A stretch of DNA of 64,000 nt. Source: Flavobacteriales bacterium. GTDB taxonomy: Bacteria; Bacteroidota; Bacteroidia; Flavobacteriales_D; Crocinitomicaceae. The translations under genes and the position numbers were made by a program. Below, piece by piece: positions 49,375-63,834 of the stretch (positions are counted from its first letter, which is position 1; every line of letters begins with the position of its first letter). Below the pieces are notes generated by a model. It made no database searches. It was not told the DNA's origin and worked only from the letters and a program-made list of their open reading frames with translations. The stretch lies in contig CANGJM010000008.1 of NCBI GenBank assembly GCA_947454525.1, positions 62,001-126,000 on the forward strand, written 5' to 3'.

Positions 49375-49382
49375 TATTTTTG
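49375..49382 (+). promoter_or_regulatory. Possible -7 box for the starch locus
   Basis: TATTTTTG fully matches TAnnTTTG, 51 bases before the first gene of the locus. The palindromic element at 49387 lies immediately downstream, so a bound regulator would sit on the transcription start. A weaker box (TATTTTTT at 49405-49412) follows the element. Confidence 0.45.
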
Positions 49383-49386
49383 AAGT

Positions 49387-49404
49387 TGTCAATCTGACAC
49401 TAAG
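49387..49404. promoter_or_regulatory. Palindromic element shared with susC, copy 1
   Basis: TGTCA-ATC-TGACA followed by CTAAG. The 18 bases are identical at 15 positions to the element at 59109-59126 upstream of susC. It is a candidate binding site for a starch or maltose regulator encoded elsewhere. Confidence 0.6.
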
Positions 49405-49433
49405 TATTTTTTAACCTTTTTAAAAATTGAACT

Positions 49434-50447
49434 ATGAAAAAAATGTTTACTTTTTTAGCTACAGTATTTATTAGTGTAGCGTCTTACGCGCAGTTCCCTG
49501 CGGTAGGTATTATCGGATCTGCGGTTCCACCTTACGATTGGTCTGTGGATATCCCGATGCAAACCTTAGATGGAAACATCTATGCTGGTGTTGTTACATG
49601 TGTTGCTGGTGAAGCGAAATTTCGCCAAGATGCAGCATGGACTATTAACTGGGGTGCAGCAACTTTTCCAGCTGGATTAGGAGTGCAAGACGGAGCAAAT
49701 ATCCCTGTAACTGCAGGAACGTATTTGGTTGTTTTTGACCGCACATCTGGTGCTTACCAATTCATGACAGATTACACTGTAACTTACCAAGTGGATATTA
49801 CTGGTTATTTAGCAGGTGGAGCAACATTGAATGCAAACGGTATCCGCGTTGGTGGAAACTTTGCTGATTTCGGTGCTTCTGTAGCTGCAGGTGCAATGGT
49901 TAACTGGTCTCCGTCTGATGCTAATTCAGCAATGACAGACTTAGGAAACAACATCTGGTCAATCGACGTAACGTATCCAGTTGCTTCTTTACAAGCGACA
50001 CAAATCTACAAATTTGTGAACGGTGATTGGGGAACAAACGAAGGTACTGATGCTGCTAACACAATTGCTGTTGATGGTTGTGGAACTGATGATGGTTCTG
50101 GAAACATTAACCGTAACTACTTGTTGTTGCCAGGAACTGTATGTTATGTTTGGGATGCATGTACTGCATGTGGTGGATCTAACGTTGCTGAAAACGTGAT
50201 CAACAACTTGACAGTTTCTCCAAACCCAACAGCTGATGTTGCTAACTTCAAATTTGATGTAAACAATGCATCTGAAGCGACAATCACATTATTTGATTTA
50301 ACTGGAAAAGAAGTTGCTACGAAAACTATCGCAGTTTCTGCTTCTAACAATGTTGAAGTAAATACAGCGAACTTGTCTGCTGGATCTTACATTTACAAAG
50401 TTTTTGCTGGTGACAAAGTTGCTACAGGAAAATTGATCAAACAATAA
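49434..50447 (+). CDS. SusE/SusF-like starch-binding protein with T9SS type A tail
   Basis: A 337-residue exported protein. The signal peptide is MKKMFTFLATVFISVASYAQ. Two beta-sandwich domains follow: about 23-115 (GIIGSAVPPYDWSVDIPMQ, EAKFRQDAAWTINWGAATFP, GTYLVVFDRTSGAYQF), as in SusE/SusF-type outer-membrane starch-binding modules, and about 120-245 (NIWSIDVTYPVASLQATQIYKFVNGDWGTNEG), which is CBM-like. The last ~75 residues are a T9SS type A domain (LTVSPNPTADVANFKF, LFDLTGKEV, SGSYIYKV-type). Unlike Bacteroides SusE/F it is not a lipoprotein, so it is displayed through T9SS. It probably binds starch at the surface. A terminator follows directly. Confidence 0.82.
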   Translation: MKKMFTFLATVFISVASYAQFPAVGIIGSAVPPYDWSVDIPMQTLDGNIYAGVVTCVAGEAKFRQDAAWTINWGAATFPAGLGVQDGANIPVTAGTYLVVFDRTSGAYQFMTDYTVTYQVDITGYLAGGATLNANGIRVGGNFADFGASVAAGAMVNWSPSDANSAMTDLGNNIWSIDVTYPVASLQATQIYKFVNGDWGTNEGTDAANTIAVDGCGTDDGSGNINRNYLLLPGTVCYVWDACTACGGSNVAENVINNLTVSPNPTADVANFKFDVNNASEATITLFDLTGKEVATKTIAVSASNNVEVNTANLSAGSYIYKVFAGDKVATGKLIKQ

Positions 50448-50467
50448 TTTTTCAATTATTTATTGAG

Positions 50468-50500
50468 AGCCTAAGTTGAAAGATACTTAGGCTTTTTTTT
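50468..50500 (+). terminator. Intrinsic terminator after the SusE/F-like gene
   Basis: AGCCTAAGT pairs with ACTTAGGCT (nine pairs) around an eight-base loop, then eight T. The amylase gene starts 17 bases later with no promoter box in between, so this is likely a partial terminator that makes the binding protein the most abundant product. Confidence 0.85.
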
Positions 50501-50517
50501 ACCTTAAACATTTCTAA

Positions 50518-53301
50518 ATGAAACATGTCATCCTTACCGTAGTTGCTAGCATCTATAGTTCAATGCTCATCGCACAAGTTTTAGACGTTTCCCCAGCTTT
50601 TCCAACCGTTAACGATGTGGTCACCATCACGTATGATGCCACTCAAGGAAATGGAGCGCTGATTGGTCAGTCTCAAATTTATGCCCATGCAGGATTAATT
50701 ACGAGTGCAAGCACCTCGCCATCAAATTGGCAATACGTACAGGGGACTTGGGGAACAGTTGATCCTCAAGTGGCAATGACAAACATTGGAAATAATAAAC
50801 ATACGATTACGATCGATATTGATCAGTTCTACGGGTATCCACTCGCAACAACGACCGTACTCAAACTTGCTTTTGTTTTTCGAACAGCAAACGGTAACAT
50901 CGTTGGACGTGCAGCAGATGGAGGAGATATTTTTTACGATGTATATCCTGTGAATGCTGGATTACTCGGACAATTTTTCCACCCGAATAATGGAAGTATT
51001 TACAACCTTAATGATCAAATCGCTATAAATGCTGAGGCAAATACAAGTTCCACGCTGTCTTTAAAAGAAGATGGAAACGTTTTGACTACCTTAACAAATG
51101 CAACAACCTTAAATTATACTTTAACAGCAAGTTCTGCAGGAACGCATTTGTTGGAGTTTGAGGTAAATGATGGAACAACAACCATCATTGATAGCACATA
51201 CTACACAGTTAATCCTGTAGTGAATATTGTCAATCCAACAATTTCTGGATTGGTGAATGGTGTAAATTACATCAACGATACAACGGTTATTTTTCAATTA
51301 TACGCACCACAAAAACAACATGTTTATGTGATTGGTGGTTTCAATAACTGGACACCTACTGCTGTTTATCACATGAATTTGTCCACGAACAATGCAACAT
51401 GGTGGCTTGAAGTCACAGGGCTTACCGCTGGACAAAAATATGGCTATCAATATTTTATCGATGGCACCATGAAATTCGCAGATCCATTGAGTAGTCTGAT
51501 TTTAGATCCAAATAACGATGGCAACATCAATGCAGCAACAAACCCCAATCCGCTTCCTTATCCTACTGGACAAACAACCGGATTTGTTTCTGTTTTTCAA
51601 CCAGGGGCTACTCCGTACGATTGGCAAAATACAAGTTTCCAAGGTCCGGCGAAAAAGGATTTAGTTATTTACGAATTGTTGGTGCGTGATTTTGTGGCGA
51701 AACACAATTATCAAACATTAATCGATACACTTGCTTACCTCGATAAGCTTGGAATCAATGCGATCGAATTAATGCCTCCGGGAGAATTCGAAAACAATGA
51801 AAGTTGGGGATACAATCCATCCTTTCATAAGGCACTAGATAAATACTACGGCACTCCAGAAAAGTTCAAAGAATTCGTAGACAGTTGCCATAACCGCGGC
51901 ATTGCCGTTATTGTTGACATGGTATTAAATCATGCCTTCGGACAAAATCCAATGGTGAATATGTATTGGGATGCAGCGAATAATCGTCCAGCAGCCAATA
52001 ATCCTTGGTTCAATGCGATTTGTCCACACGAACCATACTGTTGGGGTTATGACTTCGACCATACGAGACAGGCTACACAAATGTACATCGATCAAGTCAA
52101 TAAGTTTTGGCTCGACGAATACCATGTAGATGGATTCCGTTTCGACTACACAAAAGGATTTACAAATTCTGCGGCATCCTACAGTTTAGAGCGAATCAAT
52201 ATTCTTAAAAGAATGGCGGATAAGATTTGGGATGTGAAATCAAACGCATATGTAATATTGGAACACTGGTGCGATAACTCGGAAGAAATTCAATTGGCTA
52301 ATTACGGCATGATGCTATGGGGGAATCTGACCAATGCATATGAAGAGGCAGGAATGGGTTACACAAGTTCCTCCAACATTAGTTCAGGTATTTATTCCAA
52401 TCGTACGTGGACAGTACCTCATTTGGTAACGTACATGGAAAGCCATGATGAAGAACGCATGATGTACAAAAATTTGACATTTGGTAACGCGACGAATCCA
52501 AATCATAATGCGAAAAACTCCTATGTTGCTTTGGGACGAATGCAAACAGCGGCCGTAATTTTCCTAACTCAACCAGGCCCAAGAATGATTTGGCAATTTG
52601 GTGAATTGGGATATGATATTTCCATTGAGAGTCCATGTCGTGTGTGTAATAAACCAATACTTTGGAATTATTATACTCAGGCAAGAAGACGTCAATTGTA
52701 TGACGTGTATGCTGCAACTTTAAAGTTGAGAAATGATTATGAAACATTTCGTTCATTGAATTTTACTTACAATTTAAGCGGAGCAGTGAAAAAAATGAAA
52801 TTGACAGATCCATCGATGAACGGGGTTGTGATCACCAATTTTGCTGTAACTTCTCAAAATGGATCCCCAAATTTTCACCATAATGGATGGTGGTACGAAT
52901 ATTTCACTGGAGACAGTTTAAATGTAACCGATGTCAATATGAATTTCTCTCTTGAGCCTGGAGAATACCGAATTTATACGGATGTCCGTTTGGATCAACC
53001 CTTAATAACGGATGCACCAATGTCAATAGACGAGGTGATGGAATCACATTTCCCTATGAGCGTTTTTCCAAATCCAAGTGTGAGTAATTTACACGTTGTC
53101 TTCAGTGCAAAGGATATGAATGCCATGGAATTAAAGGTGCTGAACGAAGCTGGACAAGTAGTTTATTCGGAAAAGGGAACAACGAATCCGGGTAAAAATG
53201 AGGTGCTTCTGAATGTGAGTGATTGGAAAAGTGGTTCTTACCATGTGCTTCTTCGTGTAGGTCAATTCTATTCGAATGAAGGATTTATTATTGTGCATTA
53301 A
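50518..53301 (+). CDS. Secreted GH13 alpha-amylase-family enzyme with CBM48-like domain and T9SS type A tail
   Basis: A 927-residue extracellular glycoside hydrolase. Signal peptide ends near residue 19 (LIAQ). N-terminal starch-binding-like beta domain (about 20-145), an Ig-like domain (about 150-235) and a CBM48/E-set domain (about 255-335, VIGGFNNWTP, YGYQYFIDG) come before the GH13 barrel (about 380-780). Catalytic residues are intact: region I DMVLNH (D467, H472), nucleophile D543 in DGFRFD, acid E582 in ILEHW, and D644 in SHDEE. The T9SS type A tail (VFPNPSVSNLHV, VLNEAGQVVY) fills the last ~80 residues. It likely cleaves starch or glycogen at the surface. TAATG overlap couples it to the CotH gene. 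Confidence 0.92.
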   Translation: MKHVILTVVASIYSSMLIAQVLDVSPAFPTVNDVVTITYDATQGNGALIGQSQIYAHAGLITSASTSPSNWQYVQGTWGTVDPQVAMTNIGNNKHTITIDIDQFYGYPLATTTVLKLAFVFRTANGNIVGRAADGGDIFYDVYPVNAGLLGQFFHPNNGSIYNLNDQIAINAEANTSSTLSLKEDGNVLTTLTNATTLNYTLTASSAGTHLLEFEVNDGTTTIIDSTYYTVNPVVNIVNPTISGLVNGVNYINDTTVIFQLYAPQKQHVYVIGGFNNWTPTAVYHMNLSTNNATWWLEVTGLTAGQKYGYQYFIDGTMKFADPLSSLILDPNNDGNINAATNPNPLPYPTGQTTGFVSVFQPGATPYDWQNTSFQGPAKKDLVIYELLVRDFVAKHNYQTLIDTLAYLDKLGINAIELMPPGEFENNESWGYNPSFHKALDKYYGTPEKFKEFVDSCHNRGIAVIVDMVLNHAFGQNPMVNMYWDAANNRPAANNPWFNAICPHEPYCWGYDFDHTRQATQMYIDQVNKFWLDEYHVDGFRFDYTKGFTNSAASYSLERINILKRMADKIWDVKSNAYVILEHWCDNSEEIQLANYGMMLWGNLTNAYEEAGMGYTSSSNISSGIYSNRTWTVPHLVTYMESHDEERMMYKNLTFGNATNPNHNAKNSYVALGRMQTAAVIFLTQPGPRMIWQFGELGYDISIESPCRVCNKPILWNYYTQARRRQLYDVYAATLKLRNDYETFRSLNFTYNLSGAVKKMKLTDPSMNGVVITNFAVTSQNGSPNFHHNGWWYEYFTGDSLNVTDVNMNFSLEPGEYRIYTDVRLDQPLITDAPMSIDEVMESHFPMSVFPNPSVSNLHVVFSAKDMNAMELKVLNEAGQVVYSEKGTTNPGKNEVLLNVSDWKSGSYHVLLRVGQFYSNEGFIIVH

Positions 53302-54722
53302 TGAAGTCCTTTTTTCTTTTCATTCTTTGTGTCCTCATGGAATTGAGTGTCAAAGCTCAATTCGTACATCCTCCCAATAACAACGCCTTCCTTCAGTATG
53401 AAGTGGCTAGCGTTTATGTTACCATGTCCGCAGTCGATGCGCAAATGATGGTAGCTGATAGCGTTTATTCCGATTACCCCTTTGTTGCTTCGGTCATTTA
53501 TTCCTCCAGTGCTGTTCAAGACACCTTGACGAATGTTGGAATACATGTTCGTGGAAATACGTCAAGGGATGCAGCGAAAAAGTCCTTTGAATTGTCATTC
53601 AATAGCTATGTTCCAGGTAGAAAATACCGTGGATTAGAGAAAATGAAGTTGAATGGAGAACATAACGATGTTTCCATTTTACGTTCGAAAGTCTCCTGTG
53701 ATTTATTGACGGCATGCGGACTTCCATCTCCTAGATCCAGTTACGTGAAGTTATACATCAACAATGAATACAAAGGATTGTATATCCACATCGAACATTT
53801 TGATGAGGAATTTATTCAAAAAAGATTTCCAAACGACAATACGGGCAACCTCTTTAAATGTTTTTATGGCTCTGATTTAACCTATCACGGAACGAATCCA
53901 ACGTATTACGAAAACACCTACAAATTGAAAACGAATGAGGCGGTGAATGATTATTCAGGACTGATTCATTTGATTGAGGTTTTGTACAATTCCGCAAACG
54001 CCAATTTTGTTTGTGAAATACAGGATGTTTTCGACGTGGATACGTATTTGCGCACACTTGCGGTGGAAATATTGATTGGACAATGGGACGGATATGCCTA
54101 CAACAAAAACAACTATTTTCTATACGAACGTCCTTCGGATGGTAAGTTCATCTTCATGGAATACGATCTAGACAATACCTTCGGAATCGATTGGTTCAAT
54201 GTCAATTGGTCCACACGCAACATTTACACTTGGGCGAATGCCAATCGACCACTCTATTCAAAATTATTGGCAGTTCCTTATTTCAAGGACCGATTTAATT
54301 ACCACATGAAGGACATTCTAACGAATTATTTCCTTCCTTCAACGTTGTTGGGAAGCCTTCAAGCAAAACAAAATTTAATCGCGAATGCAGCGTTGCTCGA
54401 TGACTACAAAGGCTACGATTATGGATTTACAGATCAAGATTTCTTGGATGCCATCGATCAAGCATGGGGATTTCACGTCACACAATCGATTAGTGAATAC
54501 ATTCAAAGCCGATATAGTTCAGCTAACACTCAAGTATTGGCCTTCCAAAACATTCAGAATCCATGTACATCAGGATTGGAAGAATTTGCGTCTGAAAATG
54601 CGCTTAAAGCGATAAAGGCAGTAGATGTATTGGGTAGAGAAATACCATTGAACACGAAAAATTGCATCAAAATAGTGAGCTATGAAAATGGCTCGGTTAA
54701 ACAACTTTATGAATATGAATAA
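53301..54722 (+). CDS. CotH-family kinase protein, exported, within the starch locus
   Basis: A 473-residue protein with a signal peptide (MKSFFLFILCVLMELSVKAQ) and a CotH kinase domain (about 60-400). Recognisable parts are VGIHVRGNTSRDAAKKSFEL, KMKLNGEHNDVSILRSKVS, YKGLYIHIEHFDEEFI and the metal-binding MEYDLDNTFGIDWF. CotH proteins are atypical protein kinases first known from spore coats. The C-terminus (KAVDVLGREIPLNTKN, ending VKQLYEYE) resembles a short T9SS-type tail. It is coupled to both neighbours: its ATG overlaps the amylase stop by one base, and its stop lies within the start region of the next amylase. The role in starch use is unknown; phosphorylation of surface proteins of the locus is one possibility. 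Confidence 0.87.
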   Translation: MKSFFLFILCVLMELSVKAQFVHPPNNNAFLQYEVASVYVTMSAVDAQMMVADSVYSDYPFVASVIYSSSAVQDTLTNVGIHVRGNTSRDAAKKSFELSFNSYVPGRKYRGLEKMKLNGEHNDVSILRSKVSCDLLTACGLPSPRSSYVKLYINNEYKGLYIHIEHFDEEFIQKRFPNDNTGNLFKCFYGSDLTYHGTNPTYYENTYKLKTNEAVNDYSGLIHLIEVLYNSANANFVCEIQDVFDVDTYLRTLAVEILIGQWDGYAYNKNNYFLYERPSDGKFIFMEYDLDNTFGIDWFNVNWSTRNIYTWANANRPLYSKLLAVPYFKDRFNYHMKDILTNYFLPSTLLGSLQAKQNLIANAALLDDYKGYDYGFTDQDFLDAIDQAWGFHVTQSISEYIQSRYSSANTQVLAFQNIQNPCTSGLEEFASENALKAIKAVDVLGREIPLNTKNCIKIVSYENGSVKQLYEYE

Positions 54723-56613
54723 GGGTTACTTTTTATCAATTGTCCTGTTTTGTGTCCTTCAATCGAATGCACAAATCTTAACACATGTAGAACCAGCAAA
54801 TTGGTGGGCTGGAATGGAACACCATGAAGTGCAAATCTTGTTACATGGAAACAATATCGCCAACTATCAAGTGCAGGTTTCAGGATTAGCAATCACGGGA
54901 ATCGTGAAGACAGAAAATCCGAATTATTTGTTCGTGACTGTTGAAACGAAAGATAAAGTTGCCGGTACCTATCCGATTAAACTCATCGACAAGAAAAAAG
55001 AAATCACCCATTTTGACTTCAAGTTAGAAGAACGGATGAGCAATAGTGCGCAACGTGAAAGTTATACTTCCGCGGATGTCGTTTACCTCTTAATGCCAGA
55101 TCGTTTTGCGAATGCCAACGAAGGATTAGATACGCATCCGGACACAAAAGAAGTAGCAGATCGTTCGAATCCTGGTGGACGTCACGGGGGAGACATCATG
55201 GGAATTATTCAACATTTAAATTACATCAAAGAACTTGGTGCAACAGCCATTTGGACAACACCGATGTTAGAGGATAACGAGGAGACCTATTCGTACCATG
55301 GATATGCACAATCCGATTTGTATAAAATCGACCCGCGTTATGGAACAAATTCCTGGTACAAAGAAATGGTGCTTGAAGCACATCGTCAAGGATTAAAAGT
55401 GATCAAAGACGAAGTACCGAATCACTGGTCCAGTAAACATTGGATGATTAAAGATTTACCATCGCAAGACTGGATTCATCAATTCCCTGCGTTTACACGT
55501 TCGAGTTACCGTACAAGTACACAAATGGATCCACATGCCTCGCAAAAGGATAAAGGTGCATCAGAGGATGGTTGGTTCGACACAACGATGCCGGATATGA
55601 ATCAATCCAATCCACTTTTGTTAACCTACTTGATACAAAATACCATTTGGTGGATTGAATATGCGCAATTAGATGGACTTCGTGTGGATACGTATTCCTA
55701 TAACGATAAAGAAGCCATTTCTGTTTGGACAAAAGCAATCACAGATGAATATCCACGCTTGAACATCATGGGCGAAGTGTGGATGCATAATCAAGCACAA
55801 ATGTCCTATTGGCAAAAAGATAGTCCCGTTGGAGCGATTGACTCGTACAACAGTTACCTTCCAACGGTGATGGATTTTACGATGCACGATGCGTTCATGC
55901 AGGCCTTCAATGAAACGAAACAAGATTGGGACAAAGGAATGGTCCGCTTTTACGACAATGTTGCCAACGATTTTCTGTACAAAGATCCGTCCAACTTGCT
56001 CGTGTTTTTTGAAAATCATGACACGAAACGTTTCAATGAATATTGTCCGAATATTGCGGACTATAAATTAGCACTGACCCTCATTTCTACAACTCGTGGA
56101 ATTCCACAGATTTATTATGGTTCTGAAATTGGAATGAAAGGAAGCAAAGATGTTGGTGATGCAGACATCCGTAGAGACTTTCCAGGTGGATGGGCTGCTG
56201 ATCGTCATACCGCATTTTGTAGCAGCGAAGATTCGAAATGCCATGCATATCAAACTGGACGCACAGCAGAGGAAGAAGCATATTTTCAGTTTACGAAGTC
56301 TTTGTTGAATTGGAGAAAGAACAACAAAATCATTCATGAAGGCAAATTGATGCAGTATGTCCCTGAAAACAACGTGTATGTGTATGCGCGCTACAAGGAG
56401 CCAAATGGCATGTACGATATGCCAGGGAAACAAGTCGTTTTAGTCGTGATCAATAACTCCACCAAGGAGGAAACGATTCGTTGGGACCGTTATCAGGAAA
56501 TGATTCAAGGCAAAGAAACAGGAGTGGATGTACTGACACATCATACGGTAAATTTCGACCTCAAAACAGCGGTCATTCCTGCAAAAACTGCTTACATTCT
56601 AGAACTTAAATAA
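54715..56613 (+). CDS. GH13 cyclomaltodextrinase/neopullulanase, SusA-like, periplasmic
   Basis: A 632-residue enzyme. The start at 54715 gives the signal peptide MNKGYFLSIVLFCVLQSNAQ; the frame is open upstream into the CotH gene (ATGs at 54682 and 54709). The N-terminal domain (about 21-115) matches cyclomaltodextrinase N-domains (HVEPANWWAGMEHHEVQILLHG). The GH13 core has DEVPNHW (region I), nucleophile D325 in DGLRVD, acid E354 in IMGEVW, and D436 in ENHDTK. With no T9SS tail and no lipobox, it should stay in the periplasm and cleave imported maltodextrins, as SusA does. GH31 starts two bases after its stop. Confidence 0.93.
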   Translation: MNKGYFLSIVLFCVLQSNAQILTHVEPANWWAGMEHHEVQILLHGNNIANYQVQVSGLAITGIVKTENPNYLFVTVETKDKVAGTYPIKLIDKKKEITHFDFKLEERMSNSAQRESYTSADVVYLLMPDRFANANEGLDTHPDTKEVADRSNPGGRHGGDIMGIIQHLNYIKELGATAIWTTPMLEDNEETYSYHGYAQSDLYKIDPRYGTNSWYKEMVLEAHRQGLKVIKDEVPNHWSSKHWMIKDLPSQDWIHQFPAFTRSSYRTSTQMDPHASQKDKGASEDGWFDTTMPDMNQSNPLLLTYLIQNTIWWIEYAQLDGLRVDTYSYNDKEAISVWTKAITDEYPRLNIMGEVWMHNQAQMSYWQKDSPVGAIDSYNSYLPTVMDFTMHDAFMQAFNETKQDWDKGMVRFYDNVANDFLYKDPSNLLVFFENHDTKRFNEYCPNIADYKLALTLISTTRGIPQIYYGSEIGMKGSKDVGDADIRRDFPGGWAADRHTAFCSSEDSKCHAYQTGRTAEEEAYFQFTKSLLNWRKNNKIIHEGKLMQYVPENNVYVYARYKEPNGMYDMPGKQVVLVVINNSTKEETIRWDRYQEMIQGKETGVDVLTHHTVNFDLKTAVIPAKTAYILELK

Positions 56614-56615
56614 AG

Positions 56616-59096
56616 ATGAAAAACCTCATTTTATTTCTTTTTGTTTCTACACTTAGTTGGGGACAAAATGCCACTCGACAATTTGTCTCCGTAGAAAAAT
56701 CCACAAAGGGGTACAAAGTAGTTGTTTCCGATGGTGTGTATTATTTTTCCGCATATTCTGGGAAAATGGTTGAAACGACTTTCATTCCAAACGGACAAAA
56801 GCATCCTGTGAATTCTCATGCAGTGGTGGCTTCGGTTGCAACAGACATGCTTCAGTTAAGTCAATCGACAGGTGTCGTTCGTTTAACAACGACTGCTGGA
56901 TTAACCGTGAACATTCAACAAAAACCATTTCAGATCTCTTATTGGCACCATGACAAACCGGTGATTTCGGAAAACTGGGGATATGAAAAAGCGGAAGATT
57001 CAGAGAAAATTCATTTCAACTTAACAACGGACGAGATGCTGTATGGTGCTGGTGCACGCGCATTAGGAATGAATCGTCGTGGATACCGCTTGCAACTTTA
57101 TAACCGTGCGCATTACGGTTACGAAGAACATTCGGAGCTTATGAATTACACCATGCCAATGGTCGTTTCGAATAAATGTTATGCCATTCATTTCGATAAT
57201 GCGCAGATTGGCTATTTGGATTTAGATTCTAAAAAGAACAATGTGTTGACCTATGAAACGATCGGTGGACGCAAAACCTATCAAGTCATAGTTGGGGATG
57301 ATTGGAAAGACCTCCTTTCAGAATACACGAACTTAACCGGACATCAACCGATGCCGCCGCGTTGGGTATTTGGGAATTTCGCGAGTCGTTTTGGCTATCA
57401 TTCTGAGGCAGAAGCACGAAATGTCGTCAATCAGTTTCGAAAAGACTCCATTCCATTGGACGCCATCATCTTCGATCTATATTGGTTTGGAAAAGAAATT
57501 CAAGGAACACTAGGGAATTTATCCTTTTACACGGACTCTTTTCCGCATCCAAAAGAAATGATCAATGACTTCAAAAATCAAGGTGTGAAGACTGTCCTGA
57601 TTACGGAACCGTTTATTCTCACAACCTCGAAAAAATGGCAGGAAGTCAGTGATAAAAAATTAGTAGGAACGAATGAAGCAGGAGCTCCTTTTACCTACGA
57701 TTTCTATTTCGGAAATACCGGATTACTAGACTTGTTTAAACCAGAAGCACGAACTTGGTTTTGGGACATTTACAAAGATTTACATAGCTATGGAGCACGT
57801 GGTTTCTGGGGAGACTTGGGAGAACCAGAGGTACATCCAGCCAAATTAAAGCATGCAGTTGGGTACGCGGATGAGGTGCACAACATTTACGGACATGAAT
57901 GGGCAAAACTTATTTACGAGGGATACCAGAAAGATTATCCCAATGAGCGTCCATTTATTTTGATGCGTTCCGGAAGTACAGGAACACAGCGTTTCGGGAT
58001 CATTCCATGGTCCGGTGATGTGAACCGTACGTGGGGTGGATTGCGCCCACAAATGGAAATTACGTTGCAAATGGGACTACAAGGAATCGCTTACATGCAT
58101 TCTGACCTTGGTGGATTCGGAGGACCGAACGACGATCCGGAGTTGTATGTGCGTTGGTTGCAGTATGGCGTTTTTCAACCGGTTTTTCGTCCACACGGAC
58201 AAGAAGAAGTACCGAGCGAAGCCATATTCAAAGACGAGAAAACAAAACAACTTGCGAAAGAAGCGATTGAGTTACGTTATCAACTTTTACCTTACAATTA
58301 TTCATTGGCATTTGAAAACCATGTAAATGGAACGCCGTTAATGCGACCAATTTTCATGGAGGATTCAAGTGCACATTGGTCTGATTCATTGGCAACAGAA
58401 TACATGTGGGGGAGTTGTTTCTTGGTGAAGCCCATTACAGAAAAAGATAATCACCAAATCGATTCTTTTCCGACATATTTAGTAAAAGCACCATGTGGGA
58501 CCTGGTACAACTTTCATACTGGTGAGCTTATGAATCCCTCGAAGCCATCGAGATTAACAAATCCATCGAAGCCATCGAGATTAACATTTGTTCCTGATTC
58601 AGAATTAAAGAAGACAGGACAATTATGCACAGAAGGACTGCAAACGTTCTTTTCCTACAGTGGCCTAGATAATATTGCTGTCTTGGTAAAAGGAGGATCT
58701 TTTGTTCCGATGTCCCCAATCATTCAAACAACCGAGTCTTATTCGGATACAATGGTGACGATTCACTACTACGATGCACTTGAACTAACAGAGAGCAAAG
58801 GAATTTGGTACGAAGATGATGGCTTAACGAATGAAGCCTACGAAAAAGGAGCGTATAAATTGCTTCAAATGAGCATGTTCCAGAAAGCAAAAAAAACGAA
58901 GCTTTCCTTCGATCCGAACTACGGTACAAAAATGCTGAAACATGGCTTTGTATTTGGTGTGGAGATTCATTCTGCCCGCATCCCAAAAAGTATTTCTGTG
59001 AATGGAAAGAAAATGAAATTCGAAGTTGTTGACCAAAAAATCAAGCTACGAATGACTTTAACAGAAGAAGTTCAAAACATTCAATTGAATTGGTGA
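56616..59096 (+). CDS. GH31 alpha-glucosidase
   Basis: An 826-residue periplasmic glycosidase that releases glucose from the non-reducing end of maltodextrins. Signal peptide ends near residue 17 (SWGQ). The N-terminal beta-sandwich has YGAGARALGMNRRGYRLQLYNR. The (beta/alpha)8 core has IIFDLYWFG, nucleophile D400 in FWGDLGEPE, and acid/base D468 in WSGDVNRTW; GIAYMHSDLGGFGG is typical of GH31. Near residues 640-657 it contains a nine-residue tandem duplication (NPSKPSRLT twice), discussed separately. GH31 stands in for the GH97 enzyme SusB of Bacteroides. Confidence 0.94.
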   Translation: MKNLILFLFVSTLSWGQNATRQFVSVEKSTKGYKVVVSDGVYYFSAYSGKMVETTFIPNGQKHPVNSHAVVASVATDMLQLSQSTGVVRLTTTAGLTVNIQQKPFQISYWHHDKPVISENWGYEKAEDSEKIHFNLTTDEMLYGAGARALGMNRRGYRLQLYNRAHYGYEEHSELMNYTMPMVVSNKCYAIHFDNAQIGYLDLDSKKNNVLTYETIGGRKTYQVIVGDDWKDLLSEYTNLTGHQPMPPRWVFGNFASRFGYHSEAEARNVVNQFRKDSIPLDAIIFDLYWFGKEIQGTLGNLSFYTDSFPHPKEMINDFKNQGVKTVLITEPFILTTSKKWQEVSDKKLVGTNEAGAPFTYDFYFGNTGLLDLFKPEARTWFWDIYKDLHSYGARGFWGDLGEPEVHPAKLKHAVGYADEVHNIYGHEWAKLIYEGYQKDYPNERPFILMRSGSTGTQRFGIIPWSGDVNRTWGGLRPQMEITLQMGLQGIAYMHSDLGGFGGPNDDPELYVRWLQYGVFQPVFRPHGQEEVPSEAIFKDEKTKQLAKEAIELRYQLLPYNYSLAFENHVNGTPLMRPIFMEDSSAHWSDSLATEYMWGSCFLVKPITEKDNHQIDSFPTYLVKAPCGTWYNFHTGELMNPSKPSRLTNPSKPSRLTFVPDSELKKTGQLCTEGLQTFFSYSGLDNIAVLVKGGSFVPMSPIIQTTESYSDTMVTIHYYDALELTESKGIWYEDDGLTNEAYEKGAYKLLQMSMFQKAKKTKLSFDPNYGTKMLKHGFVFGVEIHSARIPKSISVNGKKMKFEVVDQKIKLRMTLTEEVQNIQLNW
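58533..58586 (+). repeat. 27-base in-frame tandem duplication in the GH31 gene
   Basis: Copies 58533-58559 and 58560-58586 differ at one base (C/A at the sixth position) and encode NPSKPSRLT twice. The near identity marks a recent duplication at the junction of the barrel and the C-terminal beta domain. Confidence 0.95.
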
Positions 59097-59108
59097 TAAA
59101 AATCTATG

Positions 59109-59126
59109 TGTCAACTTGACATTAAG
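59109..59126. promoter_or_regulatory. Palindromic element shared with the SusE/F-like gene, copy 2
   Basis: TGTCAA-C-TTGACA is a perfect 13-base palindrome followed by TTAAG. Its TTG (59116-59118) doubles as the -33 element of the susC promoter. Confidence 0.65.
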
Positions 59127-59146
59127 GAAAATAAAAAATATATTTG
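59116..59146 (+). promoter_or_regulatory. susC promoter
   Basis: TTG at 59116-59118, a 20-base spacer, then TATATTTG (59139-59146), a full TAnnTTTG match, 39 bases before the susC ATG. It gives susCD its own transcript in addition to read-through from upstream. Confidence 0.65.
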
Positions 59147-59185: not shown

Positions 59186-62100
59186 ATGGTTCAAAAAATT
59201 ACACGAACTTTTGCTGTTTTTGCCAGTTTCATGCTTGTTTCAATTGTTTCTTTTGCTCAAAATGCAAGTGTAAAAGGGATGATTAACGATGCTGAAGGAA
59301 AGGCATTGTATAACGCATCGGTTACAGTAGAGGGTAAGTCCAAAGGCGCTATGTCCAATGATAAAGGTTTCTACGAAATCAAAGGATTGACAGCTGGAAG
59401 CTACACCTTAATTTACCGCTTCATGGGAATGGAGACGATTAAAGAAACAGTTGTTTTACAAGAGAATCAAGCTTTAATTAAAGACGTTACCTTACAATCG
59501 AAAGCGAAAGATGAGGATGAAGTAGTCGTAATTGGTTACGGAACCTCTCGAACGAAAGATTTAACAGGATCAGCAACAGTTATTAATGAAAAGAACTTTC
59601 TTCAAGGTTCTCTTTCCACACCCGAACAGTTAATCATGGGTAAAGTGGCTGGATTAAAAGTAACATCGAACGATGGGGCTCCAGGTTCTGGTAGTACCTT
59701 GCGTTTGCGTGGTGGAACTTCCATCAACGCTAGTAATGATCCATTAATCGTTGTCGATGGAGTACCTTTAGATAACGGAGGAATTGCAGGTGTTGCAAAT
59801 CCACTTTCACTGATCAATCCAAACGACATCGCTTCATTCGTAGTTCTAAAAGATGCGTCAGCAACGGCAATCTACGGTTCACGTGCAGCGAATGGTGTCA
59901 TCATCATCACAACCAAAAAAGGTGATGGTGGTAAAAATGCTCCATTGAAAATTGTTTTGGACACGAAGATTTCTCAATCAACAATCGCGAAGTACGCAGA
60001 TGTATTAAGTGGTGATTCCCTTCGTTCCCTTGTGAATGCAAGAGGAACAGCTGCTCAAAAAGCGCTTTTAGGTGATTCAAGTACAGATTGGCAAAAACAA
60101 GTTTTTCGCAATGCAATTGTGTTAGATAACAACTTGTCTATCACAGGTGGAATCAAGAATTTCCCTTACCGTTTGTCAATTGGTAACAGAAATGAAAATG
60201 GAATCTTAAAAAGAGACCAATTCAGTCGTACTTCCCTTGGATTGAACATGAGTCCTTCATTTTTGAAAAACACCTTGTTGTTAGAGTCAAACTTGAAATA
60301 CATTCAAACAAGTTCTTTCTTTGCCAACCGTGGTGCATTAGGAGCTGCTTATTTCGATCCAACGCAACCTGTTTATTCTGGAAACGAGAATTACAATGGA
60401 TATTTCGAATGGGTAGATAACAACAAGCCAAATACGCTTTCCGCAAGAAATCCACTCGGATTGATCAATCAAACAGAGGATGTTTCTAAAGTAAATCGTG
60501 CCATTGCCAATGCAAAATTGACGTACAGCCTTCCATTCCTAGAGGGATTGAAAGCGATTGTGAATGTGGGTGGTGACTTCTCAGAAGGTACTGGGCATGT
60601 CATTACGGATTCAAATTCGGCTGCTGGATATTATACACATGGTCGTTATTCAGAGTATTTATCTAGAAAAGAAAACAAATTGATTGAAACGTACGCAACG
60701 TACAATTCAGGAAAACGTTTTGGCGACCATATTTTGGATGTAACTGCTGGTTATTCTTACCAAGATTGGATGAGTAGAGGGCCTAATAATCCAACGTTCA
60801 ATCAAGCGCAAGACTCAATCATTGGAGCGGCTTCTAGTCCATATCCAAATTACACGAAAAACGTGTTATTGTCTTACTACGCTCGTGCAATTTATAGCTA
60901 CAAAGGAAAATACATTGTGAATGCTTCATTACGTCGTGATGGATCATCTCGCTTTAGTCCAGATCAACGTTGGGGATTGTTCCCAGCGGTTTCAGCTGCT
61001 TGGTTATTGACAGAAGAAGATTTCTTGAAAAACTCAAAAGCAATCAATATGTTGAAATTACGTGCTGGTTGGGGTGTAACTGGACAACAAGACGGAATTG
61101 GTGATTATGCATATATCGGAAATTACTTCTTGGGTGCAACAACTGCACAATACGCATTCGGTGGACAATACTACCAAGCTTTGCGTCCAGCTGGATTCGA
61201 TGCCAACTTGAAGTGGGAAACCACTGCTAGTTACAATGTTGGATTGGATTTTGGTTTCAAAAACGACCGCGTTTCCGGAAGCATTGATGTTTACCGCAAA
61301 GAAACAAGTGATTTGTTAGCGACAGTTCCTGTTCCTGCTGGAACAAACTTCACAAACATGATCTTAACCAATGTTGGTGGTATGAGAAACCAAGGTGTTG
61401 AGGTAAGTATGAACACAGGAATCATCGCTAAGAAAAACATGCGTTTGGATTGGTCAATCAATGCTACTTACAACCAAAACAAAGTGACGAAACTTTCACT
61501 AGTTACGGACCCTAAATCACCAGGTGTTTTAGTTGGTGGAATCGGTGGTGGTATCGGTAATACGATTCAAGTTCACCAAGTTGGATATGCAACATTTACA
61601 TACTTCGTTTTAGATCAACAGTATGATGCAAACGGAACGATGATTCAAGTTGGAGAACAAGCGACAATCGACATCAACAATGATGGTGTTATCAATACTT
61701 CTGACAAGTGGAAAGATGTTCATGCATTTAAAGATCTCAATGGAGATGGAATCATCAATGTAGCTGATCGTTACTACGCTGGACAAGCAGCGCCAAAAGT
61801 GTTCTTAGGAACTGCGCTTAATTTCACGTACAAAAAATGGTTTGCTGGATTCTCCATGAGAAGCGAACTTGGTGCAACAATCTACAATAACATACACTCA
61901 AACAGTGCAACGTTCCAAACGATTGATGGTACGAAAAAATACTTGAATAACATCAGTTCATTGTACTACGAAAACGAAGTTCAAAAAACAACAAACAACC
62001 AATTGTTGTCAGATCATTACCTTGAAAAAGCAAACTTTTTACGTATGGATTTCGTGAACTTAGGTTACCACTTTGGTAAATTGAAATTTACGAACAACAA

Positions 62101-62248
62101 ACTTGGATTGAATGCTAGTTTCACAGTTCAAAATGTATTCGTTGTTACGCAATACAAAGGACAAGATCCGGAAGTGAACGGTGGAATTGATAATAATTTC
62201 TACCCGCGTCCACGCATGTACTCATTGAACTTAACATTTGACTTCTAA
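59186..62248 (+). CDS. susC: SusC/RagA-family TonB-dependent outer-membrane transporter
   Basis: A 1020-residue TonB-linked barrel that imports oligosaccharides bound by SusD. Signal peptide ends at about residue 24 (SFAQ). A carboxypeptidase-regulatory-like domain follows (about 28-108, VKGMINDAEGKALYNASVTVEG), then the TonB box region VVVIGYGTSRTKDLTGS, the plug (about 115-230, LRLRGGTSINASNDPLIVVDGVP, IYGSRAANGVIIITTKKG) and a 22-strand barrel ending MYSLNLTFDF. The N-terminus has no extra signalling domain of the FecA type. Substrate is inferred as maltodextrin from the neighbouring enzymes. Confidence 0.95.
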   Translation: MVQKITRTFAVFASFMLVSIVSFAQNASVKGMINDAEGKALYNASVTVEGKSKGAMSNDKGFYEIKGLTAGSYTLIYRFMGMETIKETVVLQENQALIKDVTLQSKAKDEDEVVVIGYGTSRTKDLTGSATVINEKNFLQGSLSTPEQLIMGKVAGLKVTSNDGAPGSGSTLRLRGGTSINASNDPLIVVDGVPLDNGGIAGVANPLSLINPNDIASFVVLKDASATAIYGSRAANGVIIITTKKGDGGKNAPLKIVLDTKISQSTIAKYADVLSGDSLRSLVNARGTAAQKALLGDSSTDWQKQVFRNAIVLDNNLSITGGIKNFPYRLSIGNRNENGILKRDQFSRTSLGLNMSPSFLKNTLLLESNLKYIQTSSFFANRGALGAAYFDPTQPVYSGNENYNGYFEWVDNNKPNTLSARNPLGLINQTEDVSKVNRAIANAKLTYSLPFLEGLKAIVNVGGDFSEGTGHVITDSNSAAGYYTHGRYSEYLSRKENKLIETYATYNSGKRFGDHILDVTAGYSYQDWMSRGPNNPTFNQAQDSIIGAASSPYPNYTKNVLLSYYARAIYSYKGKYIVNASLRRDGSSRFSPDQRWGLFPAVSAAWLLTEEDFLKNSKAINMLKLRAGWGVTGQQDGIGDYAYIGNYFLGATTAQYAFGGQYYQALRPAGFDANLKWETTASYNVGLDFGFKNDRVSGSIDVYRKETSDLLATVPVPAGTNFTNMILTNVGGMRNQGVEVSMNTGIIAKKNMRLDWSINATYNQNKVTKLSLVTDPKSPGVLVGGIGGGIGNTIQVHQVGYATFTYFVLDQQYDANGTMIQVGEQATIDINNDGVINTSDKWKDVHAFKDLNGDGIINVADRYYAGQAAPKVFLGTALNFTYKKWFAGFSMRSELGATIYNNIHSNSATFQTIDGTKKYLNNISSLYYENEVQKTTNNQLLSDHYLEKANFLRMDFVNLGYHFGKLKFTNNKLGLNASFTVQNVFVVTQYKGQDPEVNGGIDNNFYPRPRMYSLNLTFDF

Positions 62249-62259
62249 AAATGATAACC

Positions 62260-63834
62260 ATGAAAAAGATAATCGCTTTTACTTTTATTACTGCTTCCTT
62301 GTTATTGGTGTCATGTAATAAACAATTAAATCAATCGCCTAAATACGGTTTAAATGCCGAGGCAGTTTATAGCAATCCAGATCAATACATCCACGTTTTG
62401 GCGAAATTGTATTCTGGAATGTCCATGACAGGAAATCAAGGTCCAGCTGGATCTGCTGATATCGCTGGAATTGACGAAGGATTCTCTGCATACATTCGTG
62501 TATTGTGGAACCTACAAGAACTTCCAACGGATGAAGCTATTTGTGGTTGGAACGACCCAGGAATTCCAGATTTGAATAAATCTCAATGGAATGCGGATAA
62601 CGTTTGGGTAAAAGGTATGTACTACCGTATTTACTACCAAATCACACTTTGTAATGAGTTTATTTGGCAAGCTCGTGAAGAGAAATTGACTACACGTGGA
62701 TTCTCTGAAGCGAAAATGGCTGAAATTCGCACATTCCGTGAAGAAGCTCGTTTCTTACGCGCGTTGGCTTACTACCATGCAATGGACTTATTCGGTAACG
62801 TACCATTTGTAACGGAAAATGACCGTGTTGGTGCTTTCGAACCAGAACAAATTCTACGTGCTGACTTATTCAACTACATCGAAGATGAATTGAAAGCAGT
62901 GGAAACTGAATTGTTAGATCCAACCGCTGTTCCTTACGGACGTGCATCAAAATCTGCTGCGCAAGCGTTAATGGCAAAAATGTACTTAAATGCGGAAGTG
63001 TATTTAGGTGCTGGAAATGACCGTTATCAGGAATGTGTAGCATACTGTGATAAAGTAATGAATACTGGTGCATTTGCATTGGATGATCATTACCAAGATT
63101 TGTTCTTAGCAGACAACAACACATCTCCTGAAATCATCTTCCCAATCGTTTATGATGGACTTTATTCACAAACTTGGGGTGGAACAACGTTCTTAGTTTG
63201 TGCTTCCTTAGGAGGAAGTATGGTTGCTGCTGATTACGGTGTGAATGGTAAATGGGGTGGACTTCGTGCAACAGCACCGTTCATCGATAAATTTGCAGAC
63301 ACAACTCAAGATACTCGTTGGATGTTCTATACTGATGGACAACAAAAAGAAATCACGAGTATGTCCACGTTTACTCACGGATATGCAAATCCGAAGTTTA
63401 AAAACAAAACGTCTACAGGTGGAAGTGCTTCAAATAACTCAGTTTCACCGCATACGGATATCGATTTCCCGTTATTCCGTTTAGGAGACGTGTATTTGAT
63501 GTATGCTGAAGCGCAATTGCGTTTGGGTAATTCAGCGACTGCCGTTCAATACGTGAATTACATCCGAGAGAGAGGATATGGCAATTCATCGTTCAATGTT
63601 TCAACATTGACCTTAGATGATATCCTTGATGAGCGCGCACGTGAAATGCAATGGGAAGCGACGAGAAGAACAGATTTAATTCGCTTCGGATACTTTACAA
63701 GTGGAAGCTACGTTTGGCCATTCAAAGGTGGAGATGTAGCTGGAGTTGCTGTTCCTTCATACGTGAACTTATACCCGATTCCAACTGCGGATATCGTGTT
63801 AAACAGAAACTTGACCCAAAATACGGGTTATTAA
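62260..63834 (+). CDS. susD: SusD/RagB-family surface glycan-binding lipoprotein
   Basis: A 524-residue lipoprotein with the signal MKKIIAFTFITASLLLVSC and lipidation at C19; the ATG at 62251 three codons earlier is an alternative. The helical TPR-like scaffold has EARFLRALAYYHAMDLFGNVPFV (in two segments), ASKSAAQALMAKMYLNAEVY and the C-terminal RLGDVYLMYAEAQLRLG with DERAREMQWEATRRTDLIRFG, the family signature. It caps SusC and delivers maltodextrin. It is the last gene of the locus; a terminator follows. Confidence 0.95.
   Translation: MKKIIAFTFITASLLLVSCNKQLNQSPKYGLNAEAVYSNPDQYIHVLAKLYSGMSMTGNQGPAGSADIAGIDEGFSAYIRVLWNLQELPTDEAICGWNDPGIPDLNKSQWNADNVWVKGMYYRIYYQITLCNEFIWQAREEKLTTRGFSEAKMAEIRTFREEARFLRALAYYHAMDLFGNVPFVTENDRVGAFEPEQILRADLFNYIEDELKAVETELLDPTAVPYGRASKSAAQALMAKMYLNAEVYLGAGNDRYQECVAYCDKVMNTGAFALDDHYQDLFLADNNTSPEIIFPIVYDGLYSQTWGGTTFLVCASLGGSMVAADYGVNGKWGGLRATAPFIDKFADTTQDTRWMFYTDGQQKEITSMSTFTHGYANPKFKNKTSTGGSASNNSVSPHTDIDFPLFRLGDVYLMYAEAQLRLGNSATAVQYVNYIRERGYGNSSFNVSTLTLDDILDERAREMQWEATRRTDLIRFGYFTSGSYVWPFKGGDVAGVAVPSYVNLYPIPTADIVLNRNLTQNTGY

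Follow-up and report, generated by a model that had tools for sequence, protein, structure and literature searches.

The window analysed here, a stretch of 64,000 nucleotides (nt) from contig CANGJM010000008.1 of a Flavobacteriales bacterium (Crocinitomicaceae), carries a starch locus whose two transcription units are each preceded by a copy of the same 18-nt palindromic element. Sequence comparisons make it likely that this element serves as operator for a dimeric factor of the NrtR/AraR type encoded at G000:C7:12585-13391 (G000 being the window's own genome, of 2.83 Mb), which would repress the starch and maltose units and, in this group of aquatic bacteria, tie their use to central carbon metabolism. 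The genes of the locus are closely packed, and those 3ˊ of susD run in the opposite direction until the contig end. The features are as follows.

49375..49382, + strand: probable -7 box of the SusE/F-like unit, TATTTTTG, which fits TAnnTTTG
49386..49404, + strand: predicted operator 1 (from sequence), TTGT-CAATCTG-ACAC with a TAAG tail, over the presumed transcription start
49434..50447, + strand: SusE/F-like secreted protein, first gene of unit 1, with a Por secretion tail and a weak pullulanase X25 match below cut-off (Pfam)
50518..53301, + strand: GH13-type enzyme with CBM48 and a Por secretion tail, unit 1 (Pfam)
53301..54722, + strand: CotH kinase-like protein, unit 1 (Pfam CotH, 4.3e-61)
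54682..56613, + strand: GH13 cyclomaltodextrinase-like enzyme, unit 1 (Pfam)
56616..59096, + strand: GH31 alpha-glucosidase-like enzyme, last gene of unit 1 (Pfam)
59108..59126, + strand: predicted operator 2 (from sequence), GTGT-CAACTTG-ACAT with a TAAG tail, overlapping the susC -33 element at its TTG
59139..59146, + strand: probable -7 box of susC (from sequence), TATATTTG
59186..62248, + strand: SusC-like TonB-dependent transporter, unit 2 (Pfam)
62251..63834, + strand: SusD-like protein, unit 2 (Pfam SusD_RagB, 1e-33)

A direct sequence check places TGTCAATCTGACACTAAG at 49387-49404 and TGTCAACTTGACATTAAG at 59109-59126, both on the + strand. As the preliminary description had reported, these 18-mers precede both starch units and are identical at 15 of 18 positions, with differences (at positions 7, 8 and 14) that are all C/T exchanges. 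The coordinates also agree with the placement it had proposed, in which one copy follows a possible -7 box and the other lies over the TTG of susC. Specifically, TGTCAATCTGACACTAAG starts 4 nt past TATTTTTG and is separated from the SusE/F-like ATG (49434) by 29 nt, and TGTCAACTTGACATTAAG includes the TTG at 59116-59118, located 20 nt upstream of TATATTTG, with the susC ATG at 59186. The -7 box consensus is TAnnTTTG, and TANNTTTG is found in Flavobacterium papers. Each copy had been described as a TGTCA...TGACA dyad. A shared, operator-like palindrome is indeed present, but its extent differs: the symmetric unit, which is also the core common to both window sites, is the broader (G/T)TGT-N7-ACA(C/T).

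Within the window, the degenerate form of the 18-mer has only the two sites as exact matches, and a search permitting up to three mismatches yields three matches against 0.58 expected, one of which is the susC site as read from the opposite strand. No copy at this threshold is present in the enzyme genes between the two sites, which had been said to lack one. A wider form of the core (GTGT-N7-ACA or TGT-N7-ACAC) occurs no more than 150 nt upstream of just two of the 46 ATG-started open reading frames (ORFs) of at least 120 amino acids, and both instances are the starch sites.

Conservation of the element upstream of orthologous genes, which had been anticipated, was found in starch promoters that were picked by protein similarity rather than by motif and scored for 7 of the 8 core letters. 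The susE-like set comprises the loci of the best 30 of 38 matches (E <= 8.3e-54). For susC, 24 genomes of the window's genus with a GH31 gene were considered, of which 21 loci were tried and 19 parsed. Three genomes (G007, G011 and G021) were excluded because their contigs end nearby, although the G007 contig does carry the site (L145), and the two unparsed loci (G002 and G014) nevertheless have the site by an 18-mer scan with at most one mismatch. The (G/T)TGT-N7-ACA(C/T) core is present upstream of all 30 SusE/F-like orthologues, compared with 0-3 of 30 for spacers of 4-6 and 8-10 nt. Likewise, the core (with the letters TGT-N7-ACA) precedes 17 of the 19 susC genes, with 0-2 for other spacers of the core. 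An extended pattern, TGT(C/T)-N6-ACACTAAG, occurs in 29 of the 30 susE-like promoters, with an invariant T preceding the anchor and a variable centre. Because the footprint was anchored on this pattern or on GTGT-N7-ACAC, the anchor letters are invariant by construction, and it is the presence of the anchor (29/30 and 30/30) that is informative. A -7 box (TAnnTTTG) is located 2-3 nt before the core in 27 of the 30 susE-like promoters, and 2-5 nt before it across the susE-like and maltose-operon (29/30) sets. One susE-like promoter, in G008 (L323), has tandem operator copies at -63 and -46 from the ATG, with a step of 17 base pairs (TTGTCAAGTTGACACTATTGTCAAGTTGACACTAAG).

The distribution of the 18-mer among genomes was contrasted with that of its reversed form, which served as the control. 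With at most one mismatch, the element is matched in 19 of 60 genomes (own included), all of them among the 37 of the window's genus. None of the 23 genomes outside the genus has a match at this threshold, and the control matches in none of the 60. Over 62 genus genomes (own included), a looser form of the 18-mer gives 177 matches versus 15 for the control. In G000, exact matches to the degenerate 18-mer are confined to the two starch-locus sites, and the looser form has four exact matches versus two for the control.

The element is very probably bound by a factor encoded elsewhere in the genome, and the best candidate is the unlinked NrtR/AraR-type Nudix/winged-helix protein at C7:12585-13391, whose start is probably a GTG at position 5338 of locus L047. 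Its Pfam matches are to the C-terminal NrtR winged helix (PF21906, 3.2e-26), PF19368 (2.4e-13) and a Nudix-like family (PF00293, 1.8e-05); only Nudix and NrtR/AraR winged-helix families were matched, and the RpiR family was absent. A search of PDB matched the protein to AraR (E 1.9e-45) and, weakly, to 3gz5 (E 5.3e-17). The combination of a Nudix-like domain with a winged helix, and the loss of the catalytic signature, are shared with AraR of Bacteroides thetaiotaomicron (BT0354; PDB 5bs6, 5dd4, 5ddg, 5deq), and the two proteins are identical at 85 of 207 aligned residues (41%). According to our reading of Table 2 in PMC4666351, the AraR co-crystal DNA is GTGT-TACTTTT-ACAC, contacted by Lys179, Arg180, Asn181 and their neighbours. 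The recognition-helix residues D178, K179, R180, N181 and R183 of AraR are identical in the candidate, and K184 is replaced by R. The same source gives the Nudix catalytic signature as REUxEExGU, which is impaired in the candidate (RVLDELTGL versus RVLAELTGL in AraR), with two glutamates lost according to the alignment.

The Nudix domain of the candidate also has a 15-residue insertion relative to AraR. The arabinose-pocket residues R34, R86 and H131 align as conserved, although the alignment near R86 is uncertain because of this insertion, and the pocket residues F36, G48 and F49 of AraR correspond to E, N and L. The change of these three residues with retention of the Arg/Arg/His set suggests that the ligand is likely to be a compound other than arabinose. 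Neither the linkage to arabinose genes nor the full pocket expected of an AraR orthologue was found; rather, the neighbours of the regulator are maltose genes or pfkA-gapA. The match to the NCBIfam model NtrR (NF050029) scores 114.2 bits, below the 400-bit cut-off. The named records nearest to the regulator are metagenome-assembled genomes labelled Crocinitomicaceae or Flavobacteriales. Genome G006, which lacks the regulator, has zero site matches, as expected, and G012 (94% complete, no NrtR-type match) has a single one, within an ORF.

Gene neighbourhood connects this protein to the element. In L047, the regulator gene is divergent from a maltose operon of BadF/NagK-type kinase, GH13, major facilitator superfamily transporter, beta-phosphoglucomutase-like, GH65 and secreted GH13 genes, for which enzyme names beyond the Pfam families are presumptive. 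The intergenic region reads TATATTTG-gaaa-GTGT-AAAAATG-ACAC, an arrangement equal to that of the SusE/F-like promoter. Among the loci of the best 30 matches of the regulator search (29 in the genus plus G050), every one has GTGT-N7-ACAC between the regulator and the divergent operon, compared with 0-1 of 30 for spacers of 4-6 and 8-12 nt. A second and overlapping set was obtained from named records by regulator similarity (80 loci, of which four were dropped for short upstream DNA), and here the core is found upstream of the regulator in 60 of 76 loci, with 0-4 for other spacers. For the cultured relative Cryomorpha ignava (L262), this upstream DNA contains AGTGT-N7-ACACT. Elsewhere in the order, outside the family, the gene divergent from the regulator is pfkA, with gapA and/or kinase and beta-phosphoglucomutase-like genes behind it (G051, G040, G054, G044, G039, G050, G057), or else the kinase gene takes this place (G043, G059). 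The site is present between the regulator and the divergent gene in G051, G040, G054, G043 and G059 by pattern scans, and in G050 by a core scan. In the congener G005, the regulator gene sits between the maltose operon and susD-susC-GH31-gapA as part of a single locus, with sites preceding the maltose operon, susC and gapA. An unlinked factor, as the preliminary description had proposed, is therefore probably correct for G000, where the candidate is on another contig, but in G005 the gene is inside the starch locus. These neighbourhoods, like the sites, their conservation, the domain family and the DNA-contact residues, are established by sequence.

From this evidence we infer physical binding, a dimeric state, an effector and a direction of control as follows. 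The factor would carry a Nudix-like ligand domain at its N terminus and a winged helix at its C terminus, and each subunit of a dimer would read one GTGT half of the operator. At the SusE/F-like unit and the unlinked maltose operon, where the operator comes right after the -7 box, a bound dimer would block the start of transcription, and at susC the bound factor would cover the -33 element. Both positions are consistent with repression by polymerase block. By analogy with AraR, a sugar or sugar phosphate derived from maltose or glucose may bind the Nudix domain and cause release of the operator.

Sites located elsewhere in the genome suggest a regulon that extends beyond starch and maltose to zwf, eda, pdhA, gapA and gdhA, and a specificity of the element to starch and maltose genes was rejected on their account. 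Apart from those for starch and maltose use, the site-bearing genes of G000 are ones that, from their protein starts, we take to be zwf (C7:84269), eda (C10:109583, a weak assignment), pdhA (C10:16700) and gdhA (C10:79108). A site also precedes gapA of G000 (C21, GTGTCATTTGAACAC); the names gapA and pfkA were checked by NCBIfam for G051, or by protein search. The gapA promoter (L339, -83) additionally holds a longer nested palindrome, AAAAAGTGTTCAAAGTGTCATTTGAACACTTTTT. Another 47 contexts in congeners were hand-chosen among the matches listed so as to cover unplaced sequence types, and 29 of these are before named genes: zwf (7), pdhA (8), gapA (3), eda (1), gdhA (1), TPR-like (3), susE-like (3), susC-like (2) and the maltose operon (1). 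In three congeners (L182, L180, L198), the operator is found 30-31 nt upstream of a gene of unknown function whose product starts with MFDDDEEE.

With zwf, eda, pdhA, gapA and gdhA marked by sites as well, the uptake of starch and maltose would be coupled to the flow of central carbon. We lean towards the broader view that the NrtR/AraR-type protein is a global carbon regulator in a Flavobacteriales lineage, where one operator code may serve susC/susD, secreted amylases, maltose phosphorolysis, pfkA, gapA, zwf, eda, pyruvate dehydrogenase and glutamate dehydrogenase. Such a protein would be a counterpart of HexR and CceR from an unrelated family, and might both repress and activate by site position.

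Several results weigh against assigning the element to this regulator, beginning with the window's own genome. Matches to the 18-mer with one mismatch are at background in G000 (27 versus 25 for the control), as are those to the bare GTGT-N7-ACAC core (35 places versus 36), and so this genome alone could not prove the element real. The preliminary description had looked to a genome scan for matches concentrated upstream of maltose and starch genes, a prediction that holds only through conservation in relatives, with counts at background in the own genome. Eight of the 27 matches were accepted, namely the two starch sites, the susC site as read from the opposite strand, and those for the maltose operon, pdhA, gdhA, eda and zwf. 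The remaining 19 are within ORFs, before other genes, or unplaced (L290, L302), and were not accepted. The L307 match precedes a gene that we presume to be PhoU-like. Also, five of the eight TGTCA-N3-TGACA places in G000 are within coding genes (L006, L007, L008, L009, L013) and were discarded as evidence.

Among relatives, the core is missing before susC in two genomes (G028 and G031), and the susE-like core of G079 is at -88 rather than the usual position of about -47. A plain TGT..ACA pattern also fits a spacer of 9 nt in 17 of the 19 susC promoters, and the looser 7-of-8 core, which is present in 67 of the 76 named-record loci, fits this spacer in 44 of the 76; we take these spacer-9 matches to be identical sites shifted by two bases (TGTGT). 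Of the congener contexts described above, nine are within ORFs and nine are before other genes or unplaced. A second gapA-like gene of G000 (C10:57869-58894) has no core within 150 nt upstream. With regard to the protein, the AraR wing residues K204/R205 are H243/K244 in the regulator. According to PMC4666351, K204/R205 are conserved among AraR orthologues and DNA contacts vary family-wide, and therefore this change bears on AraR orthology more than on NrtR membership. Five genomes have sites and no match to a regulator orthologue (G001, G018, G020, G032, G034). The absence in G020 (100% complete) was dropped as counter-evidence because its maltose operon runs off the contig end before the place of the regulator, and the other four, which are 66-94% complete, still count against the assignment. 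Finally, the regulator search covered fewer genus genomes than the motif scan, which included G060-G084 as well.

We prefer repression, and consider it possible but unlikely that the regulator is an activator, or has a dual role set by site position, rather than a simple repressor. The pdhA site ends directly before a TTTG that is 22 nt upstream of the -7 box, and the core at G000 gapA, at -83 to -69 from the ATG, is upstream of TAATTTTG. Both sites are thus upstream of the core promoter, which fits poorly with simple repression and makes a dual role possible. However, the sites of the SusE/F-like unit and of the maltose operon occupy a blocking position directly after the -7 box, and sugar binding by Bacteroides AraR lowers its DNA affinity, as reported in PMC4666351.

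A search of G000 with NrtR_WHD recovered two proteins, the regulator and a paralogue at C6:17592-18215. Binding of the sites by this paralogue, alone or jointly with the first regulator, seems improbable. It is as AraR-like as the regulator (E 5.3e-47), and it is present in four of the site-bearing genomes with no match to the first regulator (G001, G018, G020, G032). However, it carries Ala at the position of the intercalating Arg180 of AraR, and its surroundings lack the element: neither 18-mer form is found within 12 kilobases around it (L108), and the 35 places with GTGT-N7-ACAC in G000 are all away from it. Moreover, the conserved site belongs to the divergent promoter region next to the first regulator, other families included, and five genomes (G017, G019, G026, G027, G033) have the operon core and no paralogue match, of which G019 is 88% complete. 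The paralogue gene (L108 5548-6249) is flanked by a gene resembling sugar permeases and by a further susC/susD pair.

We regard as slightly more doubtful still the proposal that a similar palindrome is bound by an unrelated global factor, for instance a Crp-type protein or some other dimeric regulator, and that proximity to the Nudix gene is incidental. The presence of zwf, eda, pdhA, gapA, gdhA and pfkA among the targets resembles what a global regulator of carbon use would control, and the AraR co-crystal DNA given in PMC4666351 lacks the TAAG tail seen at the starch sites. Yet the half-sites and 7-base-pair spacer equal those of that same co-crystal operator, and the site stays beside the Nudix gene across several families. 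An explanation of the element as a core-promoter or leader-RNA feature, prompted by its overlap with the susC -33 element and its position downstream of the SusE/F-like -7 box, can be dismissed almost entirely, since the distance to the -7 box and the orientation vary among targets, the half-sites recur around a variable centre, and the core is present in so few upstream regions of the window (2/46).

The operator reading with the Nudix/winged-helix protein as binder is therefore the one that we compare with known systems. The preliminary description knew of no described Bacteroidota maltose regulator with such a site. The family of the candidate is a known one, with GTGT-N7-ACAC as the operator of AraR, and the starch/maltose variant would be new. 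The candidate resembles AraR in the residues D178/K179/R180/N181/R183, in this operator (PMC4666351) and in a regulon with susC/susD genes, and it differs in that it adjoins, and is predicted to target, genes of maltose, starch and central metabolism instead of arabinose genes. XylR is named as another member of the AraR family in PMC4666351. The architecture is that of Shewanella NrtR and of the ADP-ribose-responsive repressors of the NtrR type, of which the candidate is a weak match. However, it is far under the equivalog cut-off and has sugar genes on one side in L047.

With respect to targets, the closest parallels are HexR of the RpiR family, which mostly regulates glycolysis and Entner-Doudoroff genes, and CceR, a central-carbon regulator of the LacI family in Proteobacteria, according to PMC5507952. 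Sites before zwf, eda and gapA recall these systems, whereas the regulator proposed here belongs to an unrelated family and phylum and has an operator of the NrtR/AraR type. In PMC3878776, SusR of Bacteroides is described as a membrane activator that controls starch genes including susC/susD from direct-repeat sites with a long spacer, and the proposed control of Bacteroides polysaccharide loci involves SusR-like regulators, hybrid two-component systems, and sigma/anti-sigma pairs. In contrast to SusR as described there, the element is a short palindrome and the candidate has only Nudix and winged-helix domains by Pfam. Among the titles and abstract openings of the open-access literature, no description was found of Flavobacteriales in which a Nudix regulator controls genes for starch, maltose or glycolysis. 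A conserved short operator would join a starch locus that has no regulator gene of its own, a cytoplasmic, sugar-binding type of regulator encoded elsewhere, and central metabolism. If this is true, the NrtR/AraR family, with its pentose and NAD genes, would also cover those for starch, maltose and central carbon, and a testable regulon is available for Crocinitomicaceae and their relatives.

Two additional observations concern further CotH-like genes, which, unlike the Pfam-matched one among the starch enzymes of the window, are named here by resemblance only. Beyond the window, another gene for a CotH-like secreted protein (L014 3337-5025) is convergent toward susD and is truncated by the contig end. 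CotH-like genes also adjoin GH13-type genes in one congener, and again in a second family of this order (L146 662-2083, L133 5224-7047, L136 4835-7069).

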